From positions 62,001 through 126,000 of the forward strand of contig NZ_AFRW01000118.1 in assembly GCF_000220985.1 (NCBI RefSeq): a DNA stretch of 64,000 nt, written 5' to 3'. The DNA comes from Nesterenkonia sp. F. Lineage in GTDB: Bacteria; Actinomycetota; Actinomycetes; Actinomycetales; Micrococcaceae. Of this stretch, positions 41,555 to 52,565 are shown piece by piece. Every line of letters starts with the position of its first letter. Position 1 is the first letter of the stretch. The notes below the pieces were generated by a model. The model did no database searches. It saw nothing but the letters and a program-made list of their open reading frames with translations, and was not told the origin of the DNA. The translations under genes and the position numbers were made by a program.

Positions 41555-41902
41555 CAATCCGGCCACGAGTTCCCGTGGCATCTCTCACAGTACCGCCCGC
41601 GGCGCGGCGCGCACCGCCCCCGAGACCCGCGACCGCCGGATCGGCTCCTCGCCGGGGCCCTGCCGCCGATCCCGTCCCCGGCCGACGGTGGTCGGGCCCC
41701 GAACCTCGGTGGGTGCGTCCCGGACGCCGCCCGGACGCTCCCTGGACGATGCCCCGGAGAGAGCCCCGGGAGGGTCCGATCCCGTTCGCGGACGCGGAGA
41801 GAAGCCTGCAGAATGGGCTGAGCCAGTAGACTCTTCGAAGACGCCCTGATGAGAACCCTCGACGACGGCGCCGCCGTCGCACAGGAGATGAAGGAGGTGC
41901 CG

Positions 41903-42745
41903 GTGGGCCTGCTCGACACGTTGGAGCGTGGCATCGAGAAAGCCGTCCGCGGCGCCTTCTCCGGACGCGGAGGGAGCCTCGGCCCCGTGGAGATCGCCAC
42001 AGCTGTCAGACGGCACATGGACCGCGAGTCCTTCACCATGAGCCAGGGACGCAGCTTCGTCCCGAACATCTACCGGATCCGCCTCTCCGCCGAGGACTTC
42101 GCCGAGGCGCGCCGCTACGGCGTCGCCCTCGCCGAGGAGCTCTGCGAGGAGATCATCCGGCACGCCGACTCGCAGGGATACACCCTGCTGGGACCGGTCA
42201 AGGCCACCTTCGTGAAGAACCTCGACCTCAAGCGCGGCCAGCTGGGCATCGAGTCGCAGACCGACCAGGACGCCGACGACGCCGGCCAGGAGTCCGACGC
42301 CGGCTCCGTCGGCGGCTCGCGGCCCGCTCCCCCGGCACCGGCCCCGGCCGCGCCCCAGCCGTCCCAGCCGGCGGCCCGACCGGCGCCGTCTCCCCAGGAC
42401 GACCTGGCGCCGACGATGGCCCAGCCCGCCGTGGGCGCGCCCGCCGTGGTCGGCGTCCTCGAGCTCGACGGCCGCCAGCACCGGCTGACGGCGGACAGCA
42501 CGGTGATCGGCCGCTCCTCCGGCGCCGACATCACCGTCGAGGACACCGGCGTCTCCCGTCGCCACGCCGAAGTCGTGGTCGAGGGCCGGCGCCACGTGGT
42601 CCGCGACCTCGGCTCGACCAACGGCACCTACGTCGACGGCACCCTGCTGCAGGGCGCCGGCAGCAGCGCCGAGCTGGCCGACGGCGCGCTGGTCTCGCTG
42701 GGCGGCGCGCGACTGCGCTTCCGCCTGACGCCGGGGGCCCGCTGA
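41903..42745 (+). CDS. fhaA: FhaA, FHA-domain protein of the wall-growth cluster
   Basis: 280 aa from a GTG at 41903, five bases after AAGGAGG; the product then starts MGLLDTLERGIEKAV like other FhaA proteins. Residues 1-120 are the DUF3662 domain and about 190-280 an FHA domain (IGRSSGADITVEDTGVSRRHAEV, LGSTNGTYVDG) that binds phosphothreonine. In mycobacteria FhaA binds phosphorylated MviN and links kinase signalling to lipid II flow. It is the first gene of the operon that runs to pknB. A Pro/Ala linker joins the domains. Confidence 0.95.
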   Translation: MGLLDTLERGIEKAVRGAFSGRGGSLGPVEIATAVRRHMDRESFTMSQGRSFVPNIYRIRLSAEDFAEARRYGVALAEELCEEIIRHADSQGYTLLGPVKATFVKNLDLKRGQLGIESQTDQDADDAGQESDAGSVGGSRPAPPAPAPAAPQPSQPAARPAPSPQDDLAPTMAQPAVGAPAVVGVLELDGRQHRLTADSTVIGRSSGADITVEDTGVSRRHAEVVVEGRRHVVRDLGSTNGTYVDGTLLQGAGSSAELADGALVSLGGARLRFRLTPGAR

Positions 42746-42746
42746 G

Positions 42747-43250
42747 ATGAGCGAACTCGCCGTCACCGTCCTGCAGTTCGGGCTGCTCCTGCTGCTCTGG
42801 ATCCTGATCCTGTCGATCGTCGGAGCCCAGGGCCGCGACCTCATGGTCTCCAAGAAGTCCCGCGCCTCCACCGCCGCGGCACGCTCTGCGCGGGCCTCCT
42901 CCGCCCCCGCCGAGGAGCGCGGCTCCACCAGCACGCCGCACGCCGGGGTCCAGCGACCGCGCCCCCGCACGCTGGCGGTCACCGACGGCCCGCTCGCCGG
43001 CACCACCCTGGAACTGGGGTCGGCGCCGATCATGATGGGCCGCGCCCAGGAGTGCACGCTGGTGCTCGACGACGACTACGCCTCCGGCAAGCACGCCCGG
43101 CTCTTCCCGCAGGGCTCGCGCTGGTTCCTGGAGGATCTGGGCTCGACCAACGGCACCTGGCTGGCCGAGGAGCAGCTCACCCGCGCCTCCACCGTCGAGC
43201 CGGGCGACCCGATCCGCATCGGCAAGACCGTCCTGGAGCTGAGGACGTAG
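42747..43250 (+). CDS. fhaB: FhaB/FipA, membrane-bound FHA-domain protein
   Basis: 167 aa. One membrane helix near the N-terminus (LLLLLWILILSIVG) tethers a cytoplasmic FHA domain at about 80-165 (MMGRAQECTLVLDDDYASGKHARL, LGSTNGTWLA). In mycobacteria the homologue FipA is phosphorylated by PknA and helps FtsZ-FtsQ contact under stress. It starts one base after the fhaA stop and is followed by the phosphatase gene. Confidence 0.95.
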   Translation: MSELAVTVLQFGLLLLLWILILSIVGAQGRDLMVSKKSRASTAAARSARASSAPAEERGSTSTPHAGVQRPRPRTLAVTDGPLAGTTLELGSAPIMMGRAQECTLVLDDDYASGKHARLFPQGSRWFLEDLGSTNGTWLAEEQLTRASTVEPGDPIRIGKTVLELRT

Positions 43251-43254
43251 CCCC

Positions 43255-45312
43255 GTGTCCCTGGTCTTCCGCTTCGCCGCCCGGTCCGACGCCGGCGCCG
43301 TGCGCCCCAAGAACGACGACTCCGGCTATGCGGGCCGGTACTTCGCCGTGGTCGCCGACGGGATGGGCGGCCATGCCGGAGGCGACGTCGCCAGCGCCTC
43401 GACGGTGCTGGACCTCGCCCATCTGGACACCCACGGCTTCGCCGACCCGGACACCGTGCTGCCCGACGAGATCCAGACCGCCAACGCGTTCCTCTCCAAG
43501 CTCGTCGGGGAGAACCCGAAGCTCGCCGGGATGGGCACCACGATCACCTCGCTGCTGGTCACCGGGGACCGGCTGCAGTTCGCCCACATCGGCGATTCAC
43601 GGGCCTACCGGCTGAAGAAGGGCCGGTTCCGCCAGGTCAGCAAGGACCACACCTTCGTCCAGCGGCTCGTCGACGAGGGGCGGCTGAACCCCGACGAGGC
43701 CGAGTTCCATCCGCACAAGAACGTGCTGATGCGCGTGCTCGGCGACGTCGACGCCTCGCCGGAGCTGGACATCACCAGCTTCCCGCTGGAGGCCGGCGAG
43801 CGCTGGCTGCTCTGCTCCGACGGGCTCAACGCCGTGGTCTCCGACCGGCTGATCGAGCAGAAGCTGCGCTCTCCGCAGTCGCTGGAGTCGATCGTCGAGG
43901 AGCTGGTCGACCTCACCATCGAGGGCGGCGCCCCGGACAACGTCACCGTCCTCTGCGTGGAGGTCGTCGAGGCCGGCGAGGGCGACCTGACGCCCAGCCG
44001 CGGCCTGCCGCTGAGCCGCCGCGCCGTCGCCGCGGCCGGACGCGCCCCGGGCGAGGAGGAGGCCGACGTCGGCCTGGCGAGCTCCGGGCTCGACGACATG
44101 GACGATGCGCACGACGCGGACGATGTGGACGACGACGCCGCACGCCCCGCCGCGGAGTCGACGGCGGCAGGCGGCGACGAGGCCGGCGGCGAGGCCGGCA
44201 GCGAGACCATGGAGCTGGTTCCGGTGGTCAACGCCGGAGCCCTGGCCGGCCACGCCCCCGACGCCGACGACGAGCTCTCCCCGCTCTCGGCGGCGATGCT
44301 CGACCAGTCGCACCGAGCCCGACCGCACCTGCTGGTCGGTGCGGCCGCCCAGGCCACCGAGACCGGCATGATCCCGGTGGTCCCGCGCAACGTCGACGAG
44401 CACCCGATGGCGGTGCTGCTCAACGGACAGCCGCTGATCCCGGTGCGCCACACCTATTCCGAGATGCTCGACGAGCACCGCACCGGGGCGGGATCCCGGG
44501 CCGCGGCCGAGGGCGGGTCCGGCGCAGGTGCCGGCGCAGGTGCCGGCGCAGAGTCAGACGCAGGGTCCGACGACGACGGCGACGTCGCCTCCGACGCGTC
44601 CTCGGACGACTCCGACGGCGCCTCGGTGGGAGCGGCCGCACCGGCCCGGGAGTCCTCGCCCGACGCGGGGGAGACGACCGGCGCCGACGAGCGCAGTGCG
44701 GAGCGCCGGCCCGACGACGCCGACCGGATCGATGACCTCGACGACCTCGACGAGGAGGAGATGGCGCTGGCCGCCGGAGCGACGACCCAGCGCCGGCGCC
44801 GGGCCTGGTTCCTGCCCACCTTCGTGACCCTTCTCACCCTGCTGCTGGCGGCGGTGCTCTTCCTGGGGTACGTCTGGACCCAGACGCAGTACTACGTCGG
44901 CGAGGAGGACGGCGAGGTGGCCGTGTTCAACGGCGTCTCGCAGTCGCTGGGACCGATCCGCCTCTCGGAGGCCGACGAGCACGTCGACATCGCCGTCGAC
45001 GACCTCAGCCCATACCACCAGGAGCGCGTCCGCCGCGGCATCCCGGCCGACGACCGGCGCCACGCCGAGAGCATCGTCACGCAGCTGCGCGGCACCCTCC
45101 CGGAGGACGCGCCCGGCGCCGACGATCCCGACCGGCGGCAGGACGGGGACCGGGACGCCGGGGAGTCGGACTCGGGCGGTGCGGACGGCTCGGACAGTCC
45201 GCAGCCCTCGGAGGAGAGCACCCGAGGCGCCTCGGGCAGCACGTCGGATTCGCAGGACGGACGGACATCGGCACAGGGCGCGGACTCGCGCGACGGAGGT
45301 GATCAGGGATGA
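43255..45312 (+). CDS. pstP: PstP, PP2C-family Ser/Thr phosphatase
   Basis: 685 aa from a GTG at 43255. Residues 1-240 are the PP2C domain with metal-binding Asp residues in RPKNDDSGYAG, VVADGMGGHAGGDV and GAPDNVTVL. A single membrane helix lies at about 519-542 (LPTFVTLLTLLLAAVLFLGYVW). The juxtamembrane part between them (about 245-515) is extremely rich in Asp, Ala and Gly and much longer than in Mycobacterium PstP (about 514 aa in total), and a further acidic extracytoplasmic tail follows. It reverses PknA/PknB phosphorylation. It overlaps rodA by ATGA. Confidence 0.95.
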   Translation: MSLVFRFAARSDAGAVRPKNDDSGYAGRYFAVVADGMGGHAGGDVASASTVLDLAHLDTHGFADPDTVLPDEIQTANAFLSKLVGENPKLAGMGTTITSLLVTGDRLQFAHIGDSRAYRLKKGRFRQVSKDHTFVQRLVDEGRLNPDEAEFHPHKNVLMRVLGDVDASPELDITSFPLEAGERWLLCSDGLNAVVSDRLIEQKLRSPQSLESIVEELVDLTIEGGAPDNVTVLCVEVVEAGEGDLTPSRGLPLSRRAVAAAGRAPGEEEADVGLASSGLDDMDDAHDADDVDDDAARPAAESTAAGGDEAGGEAGSETMELVPVVNAGALAGHAPDADDELSPLSAAMLDQSHRARPHLLVGAAAQATETGMIPVVPRNVDEHPMAVLLNGQPLIPVRHTYSEMLDEHRTGAGSRAAAEGGSGAGAGAGAGAESDAGSDDDGDVASDASSDDSDGASVGAAAPARESSPDAGETTGADERSAERRPDDADRIDDLDDLDEEEMALAAGATTQRRRRAWFLPTFVTLLTLLLAAVLFLGYVWTQTQYYVGEEDGEVAVFNGVSQSLGPIRLSEADEHVDIAVDDLSPYHQERVRRGIPADDRRHAESIVTQLRGTLPEDAPGADDPDRRQDGDRDAGESDSGGADGSDSPQPSEESTRGASGSTSDSQDGRTSAQGADSRDGGDQG

Positions 45313-46769
45313 CGCAGGTGGACCAGGTGGACACCGCTCCGCGGCCGCGCCGCGGCGTCGAGCTGGTGCTCCTGCTGCTCGCCCTGATCATCGGCGTCGG
45401 GGCCAAGTTCATGGTCGCGGTGACCATGGAGGAGCCGATCACGCCGGCGTACTACGTGGCCACCGGCGTCTTCGCCGCCGTGGCGCTGGCCTTCCACGTG
45501 GTGCTGCGACTGCGGGCGAAGTACGCCGACCCCTTCGTGCTGCCGATCGTCGTCACCCTCAACGGCCTGGGGATCGCGATGATCCACCGCCTGGACCTCT
45601 CCTCCGGCGGGGACCCGGTCGAACCCCGGCAGCTGCTCTGGACGGTGGTCTCGGCGGTCGCGGCCATGGTGCTGCTGTGGCTGCTCCGCGACCACCGCCG
45701 GCTGCGCCAGCTGACCTACATCTCGCTGGTGGTCAGCCTGATCCTGCTGGTGCTGCCGCTGATCCCCGGGCTGGGGATGAGCGTCAACGGAGCCCGCATC
45801 TGGGTCAACCTCGGCTTCGCCTCCTTCCAGCCGGCCGAGATCGGCAAGATCACCCTGGCGGTCTTCTTCGCCGGCTTCCTGGCCAACAGCCGGGATCTGA
45901 TCCTGCTGGCCGGCCGGAGGATCGGCCCGATGCAGCTGCCCCGCGCCCGCGACCTCGGACCGCTGTTCATCGCCTGGATCCTGGCCATCGGCGTGCTGGT
46001 GGTGCAGAACGACCTGGGCAACTCGATCATGTTCTTCGGGCTGTTCATGGCCACGCTCTATGTGGCGACCTCCCGGCTCTCCTGGATCCTCATCGGGCTG
46101 GCGCTGGTCGCCGTGGGCGGCGTGCTCGCCGTGGTGACCGTCCCGCATGTCGGCCAGCGCGTCGACGTCTGGCTGCACGCCTTCGACCCCGAGATCTACA
46201 ACCGCGAGTTCGGCGGTTCGCTGCAGATCGTCCAGGGGCTCTTCGGCCTGGCCAACGGCGGACTGGCCGGCACCGGCCTCGGCGGCGGCATGCCGGACCG
46301 CGTGCCGCTGGCCAACTCGGACATGATCTTCGCGTCCTTCGGCGAGGAGCTGGGAATGGTCGGGCTCGGAGCGATCCTGATGCTCTATCTGCTGCTCTTC
46401 TCCCGGTTCATGCGGGCCGGCCTCGGCACCCGCGACGCCTTCGGCAAGCTGCTGGCGGTCGGCTTCGCGATGGTGCTGGTGCTGCAGGTCTTCGTGGTCC
46501 TCGGCGGCATCACCCGGGTGATCCCGATGACCGGCCTGGCCACGCCGTTCCTCGCCGCCGGCGGGTCGGCGCTGCTGGCCAACTGGCTGATCGTCGCGCT
46601 GGTGCTGCTGGTCTCCCACGCGGCCCGCCGGCCGATCGTCGTCGGCCCGATGGTCAACGCCACCGGCGAGTCCGCCGCCGGCACGGAGAGTCCGGCCCGC
46701 CAGGCGCCCACGCACACCGCGCCCCGCCCGACCGCCCCGACCGACGACGCCGCAGGAGGTGCCCGGTGA
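45309..46769 (+). CDS. rodA: RodA, SEDS-family peptidoglycan glycosyltransferase
   Basis: 486 aa with ten or more membrane helices. SEDS features are NGARIWVNLGFASFQPAEIGK, QNDLGNSIMFFGLFMATLY and the late GGITRVIPMTGLATPFLAAGGS. It polymerises lipid II glycan strands and pairs with the transpeptidase PbpA encoded next (GTGA overlap). A Pro/Thr/Ala tail of about 45 residues is cytoplasmic. The position inside the fha-pkn operon marks it as the RodA rather than the FtsW copy. Confidence 0.95.
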   Translation: MTQVDQVDTAPRPRRGVELVLLLLALIIGVGAKFMVAVTMEEPITPAYYVATGVFAAVALAFHVVLRLRAKYADPFVLPIVVTLNGLGIAMIHRLDLSSGGDPVEPRQLLWTVVSAVAAMVLLWLLRDHRRLRQLTYISLVVSLILLVLPLIPGLGMSVNGARIWVNLGFASFQPAEIGKITLAVFFAGFLANSRDLILLAGRRIGPMQLPRARDLGPLFIAWILAIGVLVVQNDLGNSIMFFGLFMATLYVATSRLSWILIGLALVAVGGVLAVVTVPHVGQRVDVWLHAFDPEIYNREFGGSLQIVQGLFGLANGGLAGTGLGGGMPDRVPLANSDMIFASFGEELGMVGLGAILMLYLLLFSRFMRAGLGTRDAFGKLLAVGFAMVLVLQVFVVLGGITRVIPMTGLATPFLAAGGSALLANWLIVALVLLVSHAARRPIVVGPMVNATGESAAGTESPARQAPTHTAPRPTAPTDDAAGGAR

Positions 46770-48226
46770 ACAACGCCATCCGCCATACCTGGGTGTTCTC
46801 GGTGGGCCTGTTCCTGGTCCTCTTCGCGGCGCTGAGCGTCATCCAGGTCGGAGTGACCGACCAGCTCGAGGCGCATCCGCAGAACGTGCGCGAGCTCTAC
46901 CAGGACCGCGGGGCCTCCCGCGGAGCGATCACCGTCGACGGCACGGCCATCGCCGACTCGGTGCCCTCCCCCGACACTCCGTTCGACTACCAGCGCGTCT
47001 ACCGCGACTCCGAGCTGTACTCCGGACTGACCGGCTTCTACTCGATCGTCGAGCAGCCCACCGGGCTGGAGAGCGCGATGAACGAGTACCTCTCCGGCAA
47101 ATCGGACAGCCAGTTCTTCGACCGCATCACGTCGCTCTTCACCGGCGACACGACCGAGGGCGCCCAGGTCGAGCTGACCGTCGACCCGGAGCTGCAGCGA
47201 CTGGCCCACGACACCATCGCCGACGGCACCCAGGGCTCGATCGTGGTCACCGACGTCGAGACCGGCGAGGTGAAGGCGATGACCTCGAAGCCGAGCTTCG
47301 ACGCGAACCAGCTGGCCACGCACTCGAGCTCGCAGTTCGTCTCGACCAAGGAGGAGCTGCAGAACCAGGGCGCGCCCATCTACGGCGATCCCGCGATCAA
47401 GGACCGGTTCTTCCCGGGCTCGACCTTCAAGCTCATCGACACCGCCGCCATGCTGGAGTCCGGCGACTACGCGGCCGACGAGGAGCTCGAGGTCCCCGAT
47501 GAGCTCGACCTGCCGAACTCGAACACGCCGATCAGCAACTTCGGCGGCGGCATCTGCGCGCAGCGCGACGAGGCGGAGCTCTCCTGGATCTTCGCCCAGT
47601 CCTGCAACACGCCCTTCGCCGCCGCCGCCATGGACCTCGGCGAGGACGAGATCCGCAGCACCGCGGAGGCCTTCGGCTTCAACGAGGGGCTGCAGATTCC
47701 GATGACGGTCACCGAGTCGGTCTTCCCCGAGGACCTCACACAGGCCAGCCTGGCCCAGTCGGCCATCGGCGGGTTCGAGGTCCAGGCCACTCCGCTGCAG
47801 ATGAACATGGTCGCCGCGGCCATCGCCAACGACGGCACCATGATGAAGCCGAACCTCGTCGAGTCGGTGCGCGGCCCCGATCTGCAGGTCCTCGAGCAGC
47901 CCGAGCCGGAGGAGCTCGGCGAGCCGATCTCCTCGTCGACGGCCGAGGAGCTCTCCGAGCTGATGAAGGGCCCGATCGAGTCGGGCACCGCCATCGGCGC
48001 GCAGAGCGACGTCGTCGACATCCACGCCAAGACCGGGACGGCGGACTTCGGCGAGACGAACGAGAACGGCGACCCGATCGTGAACTCCTGGATCACCGGC
48101 TTCGCCGACGTCGGCGACTCCACCTATGCGGTGACGGTGGCCTATCAGGACATTCCCTATGAGGACGGCCACGCCCTCACCGTGTCGAACCTCAAGACCA
48201 TGTTCGAGGGGGCGGTGGACCAGTGA
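46766..48226 (+). CDS. pbpA: PbpA, class B penicillin-binding protein
   Basis: 486 aa from a GTG at 46766 that overlaps the rodA stop, with AGGAGG seven bases upstream. An N-terminal membrane anchor ([20 protein letters not shown]) is followed by a dimerisation domain and the transpeptidase domain: S219TFK motif in [13 protein letters not shown] at 279-281 and KTGTAD near 418. It cross-links peptidoglycan made by RodA. It is coupled by GTGA to pknA, which phosphorylates or is controlled with it in mycobacteria. Confidence 0.96.
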
Positions 48227-50256
48227 GACCGACTGTCGGCATCCTGATGGGCGACCGGTACAAGCTGACCGAGCGTCTGGCGATCGGCGGAATGGGGGAG
48301 GTCTGGAAGGCCCATGACGAGGTCCTCGGCCGCACGGTGGCCATCAAGATCCTCAAGGAGGAGTACACCGGCGACGAGGCCTTCCTGCGCCGTTTCCGAG
48401 CCGAGGCGCGTCACACTGCGCTGCTGAATCACCCCGGCATCGCCGACATCTACGACTACGGCGAGCAGGCCGGCTCCGGCTACCTGGTCATGGAGCTGGT
48501 CCCGGGACGACCGCTGTCGGTGCTCCTCGAGCGCGACCGCACGCTCTCCTGGGAGAAGACGCTGTCGATCATCGCCCAGACCGCCCGCGCGCTGCAGGTC
48601 GCCCACGACCAGGGGCTGGTCCATCGCGATGTGAAGCCCGGGAACCTGCTGATCACCCCCACCCGCCGGGTGAAGATCACCGACTTCGGCATCGCCCGAC
48701 TCGCCGATCAGGTGCCGTTGACCGCCACCGGCCAGGTGATGGGCACCGTGCAGTACCTGTCCCCGGAACAGGCCACCGGTCAGAACGCCACCGGATCCTC
48801 CGATCTCTACGCGCTGGGCGTCATCGGCTTCGAGGCGCTAGCCGGGCACCGTCCGTTCACCGGCGAGTCGCAGATCGCGATCGCGCTGAAGCAGGTCAAC
48901 GAACGGCCGCCCGGGCTGCCCGACTCGGTCCCCGAGCCGGTGCGGGCGCTGATCATGTCCCTGCTCGCCAAGGACCCGGGCGACCGGCCGATGAACGCCA
49001 CCAAGCTCGCCGAGGCCGCCGACGCGCTGCTGCGCCACGACCTCGACTCCGCCGTCGAGGCCGTCCCGTCCCTGCTGAACCACATGGATCGTCCGGACGG
49101 GGGAGACGAACAGACCACGGAGGAGGTGCCGACGGCCACCCGGCCGACGGCGGCTGTGCCGCGCCCCACGACCGACGGCGCCGCAGGTGCCGCAGGTGCC
49201 GCAGGTGCCGCAGGTGCCGCAGGTGCCGCAGGTGCGGCCGGAGCCGCGGCCGCGCCGACGGCGCGCACCCCCGAGCAGCCGGCCGACGAACCGCTGAGCG
49301 GACAGGCGGCCTCGGCCGCCGGCGTCGGGCCGCTGGCCAGCTCCGCGACCCCGGCGGAGTCCGTCGGACGCCGGGAAACGGCCGGCGGATCCGGCCGGTC
49401 CTCCTCGTCCGCCTCCGACGGCGACCGCCGACTGCGCTGGGTGCTGATCGGGCTGATCATCGTGCTCGCGCTGGCGCTGGCCGCCGCCCTGCTGGTGCCG
49501 ATGGTCACCTCCGACGACGAGTCGGAGCCCTCCTCGCAGCCCACGGTCACCCGCACCGAGACCACGGAGGCCGAGACCGTCGGCGTCCTGGAGTCGGAGT
49601 TCGTCGGTCTCACGGTCGATGCCGCCGTCGCCGAGCTGGAGGCTCTCGGGCTGGAGGCCCTCACCGACGAGGTCGCCTCCGACAGCCCGGCCGGCACCGT
49701 GGTCGCGCTGCACCCCACCGGGCAGCTCGCCCCCGGCACCGCGGTGACGCTGCAGGTCTCGGCCGGTCCGACGACCCGGCCCGACGACGGCGGCGACGCC
49801 TCCGCCGACGAGCCCTCCGGCCGCCCCGACGAGGACGCGGAGGAGACCCCGTCGTCCGAGCAGCCCTCGCGGTCCGGGGAACCGAGCTCCGAGGACACCT
49901 CCGCCGACTCCGCAGACCCCGGCGACGAGCCGACGAGCGACCCCGGCGACTCCTCCTCGCCGACCGAGGGGGCCACCGGCGACGCCGACGACACCGCCTC
50001 GGAGTCGACGTCGAGTCCCGACGGCGAGTCCGAGCAGACCACGCCGGAGAGCTCCCCCACCACGAGCTCCGAGGCCCGTGACGGGCGGTCGACGACGCCC
50101 TCCGACGATGCCGCCGACGGCGGCGCGGAGTCAGGCTCCGCCGACGACGACGCCACCACGGAGCCCGACGCCGCCCCGACGTCGTCAGCCGGCTCGACGA
50201 CCCGACTCGCGATCGCCGCGGCCGCACTGGCCGCAGGAACGGGGATGACACGATGA
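48223..50256 (+). CDS. pknA: PknA-like transmembrane Ser/Thr kinase with one PASTA domain
   Basis: 677 aa from a GTG at 48223. The kinase domain (about 12-275) has GGMGEVWKA, the ATP lysine in [17 protein letters not shown] and DFGIARL. A juxtamembrane linker holds an Ala-Gly-Ala repeat. One membrane helix lies at about 406-428. Outside is a single PASTA domain (about 449-513) and then a long Ser/Asp/Glu/Pro-rich tail of some 140 residues that ends in a weak hydrophobic stretch. Mycobacterial PknA has no PASTA domain, so this one-PASTA form with a long tail differs. It is coupled to pbpA and pknB by 4-bp overlaps. Confidence 0.92.
49183..49236 (+). repeat. 9-bp tandem repeat in pknA
   Basis: GCAGGTGCC is repeated five times perfectly, then once as GCAGGTGCG. 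It encodes Ala-Gly-Ala units in the cytoplasmic linker between kinase domain and membrane helix. A related GGCGCAGGTGCC pair lies in pstP (44521-44544). Copy number can vary without a frameshift. Confidence 0.85.
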
Positions 50257-52565
50257 CCGAGACCCCCCGCCTGGTGCTCAACGGGCGCTACCGGATCGAA
50301 TCGCTGATCGGACGCGGCGGCATGGCCGACGTGTATCTGGGCCATGATCTCTCGCTGGACCGTCAGGTCGCGGTGAAGATGCTGCGCCCGGATCTGGCCC
50401 GCGACCCGCAGTTCCAGGGGCGCTTCCGGCGCGAGGCCCAATCCTCGGCGTCGCTGAACCATCCCAACATCGTCGGCGTCTTCGACACCGGCCGGGCCGA
50501 CGTCGAGGACTCCCAGCACGATTCAGTGCACAGTCCCTACATCGTCATGGAGTATGTCGAGGGGGTGACGCTGCGGCATCTGATGCACGGCACCCCGAAG
50601 CAGACCACCGGCCAGAACGAGGCGACCGACGCCGAGGACGCCCGCACCGAAGTGCGCCCGTCCGCCGACGACGAGGCGACCGCCGTCCACGATCCCGCGT
50701 CCGAGGAGGACTCCCAGGGACACGACGTGCTGGACCTGGGCGACGAGTCCCCGCAAGCCGACGCCGGCTCCCCCGAGGACCTCGACGAGCCGCTGCGCCG
50801 GCGCATCGACGAGGCCCTGGGACGTCCCATCGACGAGCAGGAGGCCGCCGACTACCTCTCCGGGGTGCTCGGGGCGCTGAGCTACAGCCACACCAAGGGC
50901 ATCGTCCACCGCGACATCAAACCCTCCAACGTGATGGTCGGCCAGAACGGCGAGATCAAGGTGATGGACTTCGGCATCGCCCGGGCGCTGGCGGACTCGG
51001 CCTCGACGATGACCCAGACGTCCTCGGTGGTGGGCACCGCCCAGTACCTCTCGCCCGAGCAGGCCCGAGGCGAGGTCGTCGATCACCGCTCGGACCTGTA
51101 CTCGGCCGGCTGCGTGCTCTTCGAGCTGCTGGCCAATCGTCCGCCGTTCCAGGGCGAGTCCCCGGTCTCGGTGGCCTATCAGCACGTCCGCGAGGAGCCG
51201 CCGCGGCTCTCCGATCTGAACCCGAAGGTCTCCCCGGCCATGGAGTCGGTGGTCGCCAAGTCTCTGGCCAAGGACGCCTCCGCCCGCTTCCAGACGGCCG
51301 AGGAGTTCGACCAGGCCATCACCGAGGCGCTGCGCGGTGTGCCGGTGGAGGACGCCACTGCGGCGCTGCCCGCCGTCGGCGCCGCCGGGACCCGCGGCTT
51401 CGACGACGTCGTCGCCCCCGCCGCGGCGACCACCGGCGGCCCGCTCTCGGCACGGACGCCGGAGGACCCGGTGCAGCACGCCGCACCGGCCGAGCCGCCG
51501 CGGCGTCGGCGCCGCGGCCTCGCCTGGCTGTGGGTGGTGATCCTGGTGGTGCTCGTCGCCGGAGGCTCCTGGGCCCTGGTGCGCGCACTGGACACCGCGC
51601 AGACCGAGATCCCCGCCGTGGCCGAGATGCCGCGCGAGGAGGCGGTCTCCACGCTGGAGGACGCCGACCTGGAGGCCGCGGTCGAGGAAGTCCCCCACGG
51701 GGAGATCTCCGCCGACCATGCGGTGCGCACTGATCCCGCCGCGGGCGAGCGCATCCGCCAGGGCGAGGAGATCACGCTCTACATCTCCACCGGGCCGGAG
51801 GAGCTGACCATCCCCGAGGATCTGCAGGGTCGCGAGCAGGACGAGGTGGTCCGGCAGCTGGAAGAGCTGGGGCTGACCGTCGGCGAGGTCGAGGAGGTCC
51901 CCCACCCCTCGGTGGAGGAGGGCTCCGTGGTCGCCACCGACCCGGGAGCCGGCGAGCAGGTCTCCGGCGGCGACGAGGTCGATCTGCAGGTCTCGAACGG
52001 CATGGTCGAAGTGCCCGACGTCGGGCTGATGGACGAGGGCGAGGCCACTCGGCTGCTCGAGTCCGACCAGCACGGGCTGAGCGTCGGGTCAGCGCTGCCG
52101 TGGAGCGACAGCGGATACTCCGCCGGCACCGTCGGAGCAGTCTTCTACCAGGGCGAACAGCTCTCGCCCGGCGCCACCGTGCCCCAGGACGCGACGGTCC
52201 GGCTGTCGGTCGCCACAGGATCACCGGACAGTTCCGAGGACTCCGACGACTCCGAGGACTCCGAGAACTCCGAAAACTCCGAGGGATCCGGCGGCTCCGA
52301 CGAATCGGACGCCGAGGAGTCCGGGGACGGCGAGAACTCCGGCTCGCCCGACGAGGGGGAGGACTCCACCTCGCCCGATGACGAGGAATCTCCCTCCGAC
52401 ACCGCCTCCCCGGACGAGGGCTCCGAGTCCCCGACGGATGACGCCTCGGACTCCCCCGACGACCAGGGCTCCGCGACGGAGTCCCAGGGCGACGGCGGCG
52501 ACTCCAGCCCGACCTCCGAGGCCTCCCCGACCGGGGACGCCTCGACGCCGACGCAGGACTCCTGA
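50253..52565 (+). CDS. pknB: PknB-like PASTA-domain Ser/Thr kinase with an acidic insert in the kinase domain
   Basis: 770 aa. Kinase parts are [11 protein letters not shown], Lys42 in [17 protein letters not shown] at 219-226 and DFGIARA. Between [11 protein letters not shown] (hinge and helix D) and the helix before HRD there is an insert of about 80 residues (112-190) rich in Asp, Glu and Ser, where PknB normally has only a few residues. One membrane helix lies at about 425-443, with three PASTA domains outside (about 450-655) that sense muropeptides or lipid II, then an acidic Ser/Asp/Glu tail of about 110 residues. It ends the operon and controls wall growth through FhaA, CwlM- or MviN-type targets in relatives. 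Confidence 0.94.

Follow-up and report, generated by a model that had tools for sequence, protein, structure and literature searches.

A genus-specific, predicted disordered insert in the catalytic domain of Nesterenkonia PknB as a candidate recruitment arm

What is the role of the long insertion that interrupts the catalytic domain of PknB in Nesterenkonia? In Actinobacteria, growth of the cell wall is under the control of PknB, a kinase whose catalytic domain is commonly described as highly conserved. We analysed a window of 64,000 nucleotides from Nesterenkonia sp. F, in which pknB occupies positions 50253..52565 of the forward strand, the strand that carries every feature described here. 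The reading frame is open throughout, free of internal stops, and encodes 770 residues with Pfam matches to Pkinase (PF00069, 2.1e-48) and PASTA (PF03793, 9.1e-28). The catalytic motifs, including DFG, are present in the translation on both sides of the insertion, as the preliminary description of this locus had reported, and by sequence they mark the protein as a PASTA-type Ser/Thr kinase; the top Foldseek matches of its AlphaFold model (6i2p, 3oro, and 1o6y) are all M. tuberculosis PknB. We propose that the insert serves PknB as a disordered regulatory arm, peculiar to the genus, that may be phosphorylated on Thr and may dock a partner, a reading to which we give roughly even chances.

The gene closes the usual actinobacterial run fhaA-fhaB-pstP-rodA-pbpA-pknA-pknB (ORFs 41849-52565), in which the names rodA, pbpA, and pstP are our assumption from position and sequence. 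The first two genes of the run, fhaA-like (41849..42745; FHA match G000:C21:104500-104703) and fhaB-like (42747..43250; FHA match G000:C21:105032-105223), encode candidate phospho-Thr readers, and two of the three FHA domains that score above the cut-off in the host genome are thus encoded upstream of pknB within its own run. They are followed by what we take to be a pstP-like phosphatase gene (43255..45312), whose product has a long acidic low-complexity stretch between the phosphatase part and the membrane segment. Directly before pknB, an ORF with a Pfam kinase match encodes a pknA-like sister kinase (48223..50256); its translation shows no insert at the corresponding place. C-terminal to its kinase domain, this PknA carries a Gly-Ala-Ala tandem repeat of eight units (49177-49248 of the window).

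The distance between the GxTL and H..GIVHRDIK motifs is 104 residues in the window PknB, as against 27-28 in relatives found by pattern search. The net insertion is therefore 77 residues (about residues 113-189; about 50589..50819), in keeping with the approximately 80 residues proposed at first. In the AlphaFold model, helix D spans residues 107-112 and helix E residues 195-214, with the insert between them. Residues 116-172 have pLDDT values below 50, as do residues 116-165 in the model of a second species, and are thus predicted to be disordered; in both models a helix follows the disordered part (179-188 in the window protein, where the pLDDT block means are 62 for residues 171-180 and 82 for residues 181-190). 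The interval 112-190, which does equal 50586-50822, had been described as an acidic insertion; it takes in both the disordered part and this conserved predicted helix leading into helix E. The kinase fold itself is predicted to be left intact. Across the genus the motif spacing ranges from 79 to 125 residues, corresponding to a net insert of 52-98 residues, and the body of the insert measures 51-97 residues in 29 sequences. Most of the sequence varies freely, and most of it is unalignable in an alignment of 25 sequences. A proline run found in 21 of the 29 inserts is absent from the window species. The acidity that first drew attention to the insert holds for the window species, whose 30% Asp plus Glu is the highest of the 29, but it is not a conserved feature of the genus: the content ranges from 17 to 30%, and we rejected plain acidity as the conserved trait. 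Nor did we find support for the suggestion that the insert lies close to the dimer contacts. The back-to-back PknB dimer forms through the N-lobe around Leu33 (L33 mutant entries are among the structure matches), away from the D-E loop.

How widely is the insert distributed, and how did it arise? With an E-value threshold of 1e-60, 28 of 30 Nesterenkonia genomes have a PknB match, and the insert is intact in 27 of these 28. In the remaining one (G009) a frameshift falls inside the insert, and the conserved motif and helix described below are still readable beyond it. The two genomes that have no match at this threshold (G006 and G008) are incomplete, at 79% and 65%, and the lack of a match in them may reflect either loss or missing sequence. 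Our set of 29 insert sequences comprises one from each of the 27 genomes, a further one from the second copy in G018, and that of N. natronophila (L040). Beyond the insert the gene is incomplete in three of the 27: a contig end interrupts it in G018 and G025, and the match in G017 stops early. In Nesterenkonia sp. E16_10 two pknB copies (L042 and L043) both break off at a contig edge, at almost identical points within the gene, the result of either duplication or an assembly effect. A sequencing or assembly error, or a mistake in gene calling, had been considered as a source of the insert, and the frameshift of G009 might be taken in its favor. However, the insert is in frame in 27 genomes, including the single-contig assembly G003, and in named records; the probability of error is thus negligible, and we reject it.

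The insert was not seen in 123 PknBs from other genera of the Micrococcaceae with near-full-domain alignments, in which the largest excess is 18 residues; the two PknBs with this excess have normal D-E spacing. These 123 come from 129 other-genus genomes with a match, after leaving out G081 and G164, whose matches are partial, G063 and G115, for which the listed kinase is a lower-scoring one, and G092 and G106, which are not among the matches listed. Of 70 other named loci (L044-L113), the pattern caught 54, all with a spacing of 27-28 residues, and missed 16; the match spans of all 70 are 804-876 nt, leaving no room for the insert, with the exception of L090, where a span of 1661 nt contains two kinase genes. 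One of these named loci, L069 (WNZI01000003.1), is titled Vibrio cholerae and holds an Arthrobacter-like PknB in a 186-kb contig; it is probably mislabelled or contaminated. In a sample of the class, PknB was matched in 126 of 128 genomes, and among the class matches listed, whose spans we judged by eye (the longest is 843 nt), a break at the insert site occurs only in the window's own genome. The possibility that the insert is found throughout actinobacterial PknBs is thus not borne out in the other genera of the family or in the listed matches of the class. In a tree calculated without the insert columns, a branch with SH-aLRT 100 sets all 29 sequences apart, and a single gain is enough to explain them; on this phylogeny the insert was gained once on the Nesterenkonia stem and has been kept since. 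When we searched the 30 genus genomes with a 61-residue probe from one insert, no copy outside pknB scored better than E 0.0017, although the probe also missed some pknB inserts of the other clade (G005, G014, and G015 were unmatched), and diverged copies would escape it.

Within this variable insert, three elements recur in every sequence. One is a short motif, DVLDLGD in the window species (residues 158-164; 50724..50744), whose genus form [DN][VI]Lx[LVI]x[DE] is present in 29 of 29 inserts; its core pattern occurs on average in only 0.22 of 29 shuffled inserts. The motif Leu is invariant and is encoded by CTG in 16 and CTC in 13 sequences. Likewise, the Asp is found in 28 of 29 (GAC 13, GAT 15; one Asn) and the Val in 28 of 29 (GTC 15, GTG 11, GTT 2; one Ile). 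This synonymous codon variation points to selection on the protein. The motif is short and hydrophobic, of the docking type, and could serve in docking. Neither AlphaFold model places it confidently on the kinase; the blocks that contain it have pLDDT values of about 26-32 in both species.

The second element is a Thr in an acidic context. In the window protein there are two candidate phospho-acceptors: Thr132 (EDARTEVRP; 50646..50648), in an acidic-Thr-hydrophobic context, and Thr143 (DDEATAVHD; 50679..50681), the counterpart of DDEATR or DDEQTR in relatives. In 29 of 29 inserts a Thr has two or more acidic residues in the five positions before it and Val, Ile, or Leu at position +2 or +3 (shuffle mean 12.0; 0 of 1000 shuffles reach 29), and so it does in 11 of 11 representatives less than 60% identical (shuffle mean 4.35). 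These counts come from related, not independent, sequences and from a definition made post hoc and loosened after narrower patterns. The narrower patterns matched 19, 19, and 24 of the 29, with shuffle means of 5.2, 0.8, and 4.8, which are still far exceeded. Ser is not enriched in the same context (4 of 29 inserts; shuffle mean 9.3). The hydrophobic residue is at +3 in one clade and mostly at +2 in the other: Val or Ile occupies +3 in the TQVV, TQAV, and TQAI sequences and +2 in the TRIA and TRVA sequences. FHA domains favor phospho-Thr ligands with a hydrophobic residue at +3. The Thr site is also mobile. In the basal row and one large group it lies N-terminal to the DVL motif, and a clade of 13 has it on the C-terminal side. 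In G014, which belongs to this clade, it again stands before the motif, and the later site has no Thr. Thus, the site switches side at least twice on the tree; the tree program counts three state changes, one of which is N. natronophila with matches on both sides, leaving two changes of side. A site that moves and yet is never lost behaves as would be expected of a short phospho-motif.

Comparison with published PknA/PknB site preferences shows no significant enrichment. The PknA logo, as given in the available text of PMC7164672, has acidic residues at −1 and from −3 to −6 and a hydrophobic residue at +3, among other preferences, and the PknB logo there is without significance. A score built from this PknA logo text is not significant on the inserts, with z 0.8 for all sequences (248 of 1000 shuffles reach it) and z 1.6 for the representatives (77 of 1000). 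Similarly, [DE]xxT, which resembles the Glu-x-x-Thr(P) motif that the accessible part of PMC5845002 connects with PknA/PknB inhibition, is not enriched (21 of 29 inserts; shuffle mean 22.6). Three roles had been suggested at first, namely a regulatory tether, a phospho-acceptor segment, and a docking arm for FhaA or FhaB. A phospho-acceptor segment combined with a docking arm gives the best fit by virtue of the Thr context and the short motif, each in 29 of 29 inserts, and receives no help from the logo score or from [DE]xxT. In the 24 proteins whose C-terminal tails could be compared, 1 of 118 Thr residues in the tail has the context, as against 30 of 149 in the insert; we did not use this comparison as evidence because the tail is poor in hydrophobic residues.

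Two further Thr-containing segments should be mentioned. In another genus of the family, L169 (G164:C1:142900-144300) has a distinct acidic PknB insertion, which its sequence places between beta4 and beta5 and which contains ADPDATAPMPKV, a sequence similar to the ADPDATQVVPHV found in a number of Nesterenkonia inserts; an independent gain of a similar Thr motif is possible. The juxtamembrane segments of 12 Nesterenkonia PknBs (L001, L002, L003, L005, L006, L010, L014-L017, L022, and L024) all contain SARTPED (LSARTPEDP in 9 of 12), preceded in 11 of 12 by F[DN][DQN][VL][VL]. By its recurrence in these segments, SARTPED is a second genus-typical motif with Thr.

The third element is the amphipathic helix at the C-terminal end of the insert (residues 177-189; 50781..50819), which leads into helix E. 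Its pattern [VIL]..[PQ]L...I..AL, with a hydrophobic residue at every fourth place, is found in 29 of 29 inserts, and both AlphaFold models predict it to be helical. The surrounding kinase domain also bears marks of the genus. Thirteen kinase positions distinguish 11 Nesterenkonia sequences from 49 others, and four of these (105, 109, 112, and 113) fall within helix D or next to it, immediately ahead of the insert; others are at positions 225 (catalytic loop), 257 (activation loop), 275, 278, and 295. The changes around helix D are consistent with local co-adaptation of the kinase with the insert.

How could these elements work together? We envisage that either PknB itself or PknA would phosphorylate the Thr in its acidic context, that a reader of phospho-Thr, an FHA protein or some other, would then recognise the modified residue, and that [DN][VI]Lx[LVI]x[DE] would dock a partner or the kinase itself. 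The C-terminal amphipathic helix, which is predicted, may anchor the arm to the C-lobe beside helix E. The arm would then be a second, lineage-specific recruitment platform alongside the juxtamembrane segment, a design like that of the receptor tyrosine kinase insert domain that would have been reached independently. In support of phospho-Thr recruitment, the available text of PMC12077195, citing Roumestand 2011, reports that in M. tuberculosis the juxtamembrane segment of PknB, when phosphorylated, binds FhaA, and that of PMC6180346 describes binding of the FhaA FHA domain to phospho-Thr peptides of CwlM. These two interactions and the three FHA domains of the host genome are the reasons why we favor a phospho-Thr recruitment arm. 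The more specific form of this proposal, in which a disordered arm in the catalytic domain combines an autophosphorylated Thr with a separate docking motif and lets an envelope-sensing kinase recruit a partner of the genus's own through its kinase domain as well as through its juxtamembrane segment, is put forward tentatively. The preliminary description had suggested FhaA or FhaB as the docked protein; the FHA domains are present, and nothing identifies either protein as the partner.

Could the insert instead act within the kinase, or not act at all? The motif and the helix might fold onto the kinase at the helix D-E region or the substrate groove and gate its activity or its choice of substrate, with Thr phosphorylation releasing the arm, so that an outside partner would be unnecessary. 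The alteration of helix D throughout the genus sample, the further genus-specific positions in the catalytic and activation loops and beyond, and the predicted helix that adjoins helix E in sequence all fit such intramolecular control, but the low pLDDT of the motif blocks in both species suggests no cis-docked state, and we consider this explanation unlikely. We likewise regard it as improbable that the insert is an expansion that is simply tolerated: a linker of low complexity, rich in acidic residues, which slippage would have produced in a genus whose tails are acid-rich, and which has no role beyond sparing the fold. Its body does vary from 51 to 97 residues with most of the sequence free to change, and high acidity extends to the C-terminal tails of these proteins (24 shown). 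Against this reading stand the conserved motif and helix with their synonymous codon change, the presence of the insert in every PknB of the genus seen, and the enrichment of the context for Thr and not for Ser.

A further explanation, which we hold to be very unlikely, is that the insert derives from, or has converged on, the juxtamembrane segment of related PknBs. These segments carry acidic-Thr motifs together with D[VIL]L or [LVI]x[LVI]G near the membrane: in the last 45 residues of the juxtamembranes of other genera each pattern occurs in 10 of 47, where the shuffle means are 1.3 and 1.9 and 0 of 500 shuffles reach the count. The 12 Nesterenkonia juxtamembranes have no D[VIL]L, and their sole form of [LVI]x[LVI]G is an IGIG close to the kinase end in two. 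Set side by side, ALALGNRGEVDD from the juxtamembrane of L073 resembles VLALGDTGRVHD from a Nesterenkonia insert. This likeness was found by looking and was not predicted, and none of the 47 other-genus juxtamembranes contains the full core [DN][VI]Lx[LVI]. Moreover, a Thr profile built from the 47 representatives of other genera is weak on the inserts (z 2.2 for all, 1.5 for the representatives), and among the segments listed those of Yaniella and Auritidibacter lack the motif. Phospho-Thr recruitment by a genus-specific arm remains the explanation that we prefer.

Finally, the Nesterenkonia insert can be placed beside known systems. The window PknB shares its fold, PASTA repeats, and gene run with M. 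tuberculosis PknB and the actinobacterial PASTA kinases, and it differs from the Micrococcales relatives measured in the spacing given above. We found no published description of the insert, no paper that names Nesterenkonia together with PknB, and no use of the term "kinase insert domain" for a bacterial serine threonine kinase in a literature search that left most subscription papers outside. The juxtamembrane segment of PknB and StkP, with several phospho-Thr residues and a proposed role as an FHA docking site (PMC12077195, in the part available), lies between kinase and membrane, whereas the Nesterenkonia insert lies inside the kinase domain. The ActPs2 actinobacterial pseudokinases are kinase-fold proteins whose long disordered insertions are of unclear function, but according to the accessible text of PMC12599244 these insertions occupy the activation loop and the stretch from beta3 to helix C, unlike the D-E insert of Nesterenkonia. 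The closest parallel is the kinase insert domain (KID) of class III and VEGF receptor tyrosine kinases such as KIT, which likewise interrupts the kinase domain beside helix E; its exact place is between helices D and E. As described in the available portions of PMC7096506 and PMC8307779, long KIDs have 62-97 residues, are disordered with short helices, recruit adaptors through their phospho-sites, and show little sequence homology between families. The Nesterenkonia insert has the same D-E place, a length of tens of residues, predicted disorder, and poor conservation. Unlike the KID it offers Thr rather than Tyr, with Tyr in only 1 of 29 bodies, and we claim no homology; because it has no conserved Tyr, the insert is, by this comparison, an analogue of the KID in place, size, and design and not a member of the family. 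Gained once, retained, and built of separable motifs, it can be seen as a natural experiment in the rewiring of a bacterial kinase. If the insert does recruit a partner, then Nesterenkonia PknB would be a convergent bacterial version of a design central to animal receptor signalling.
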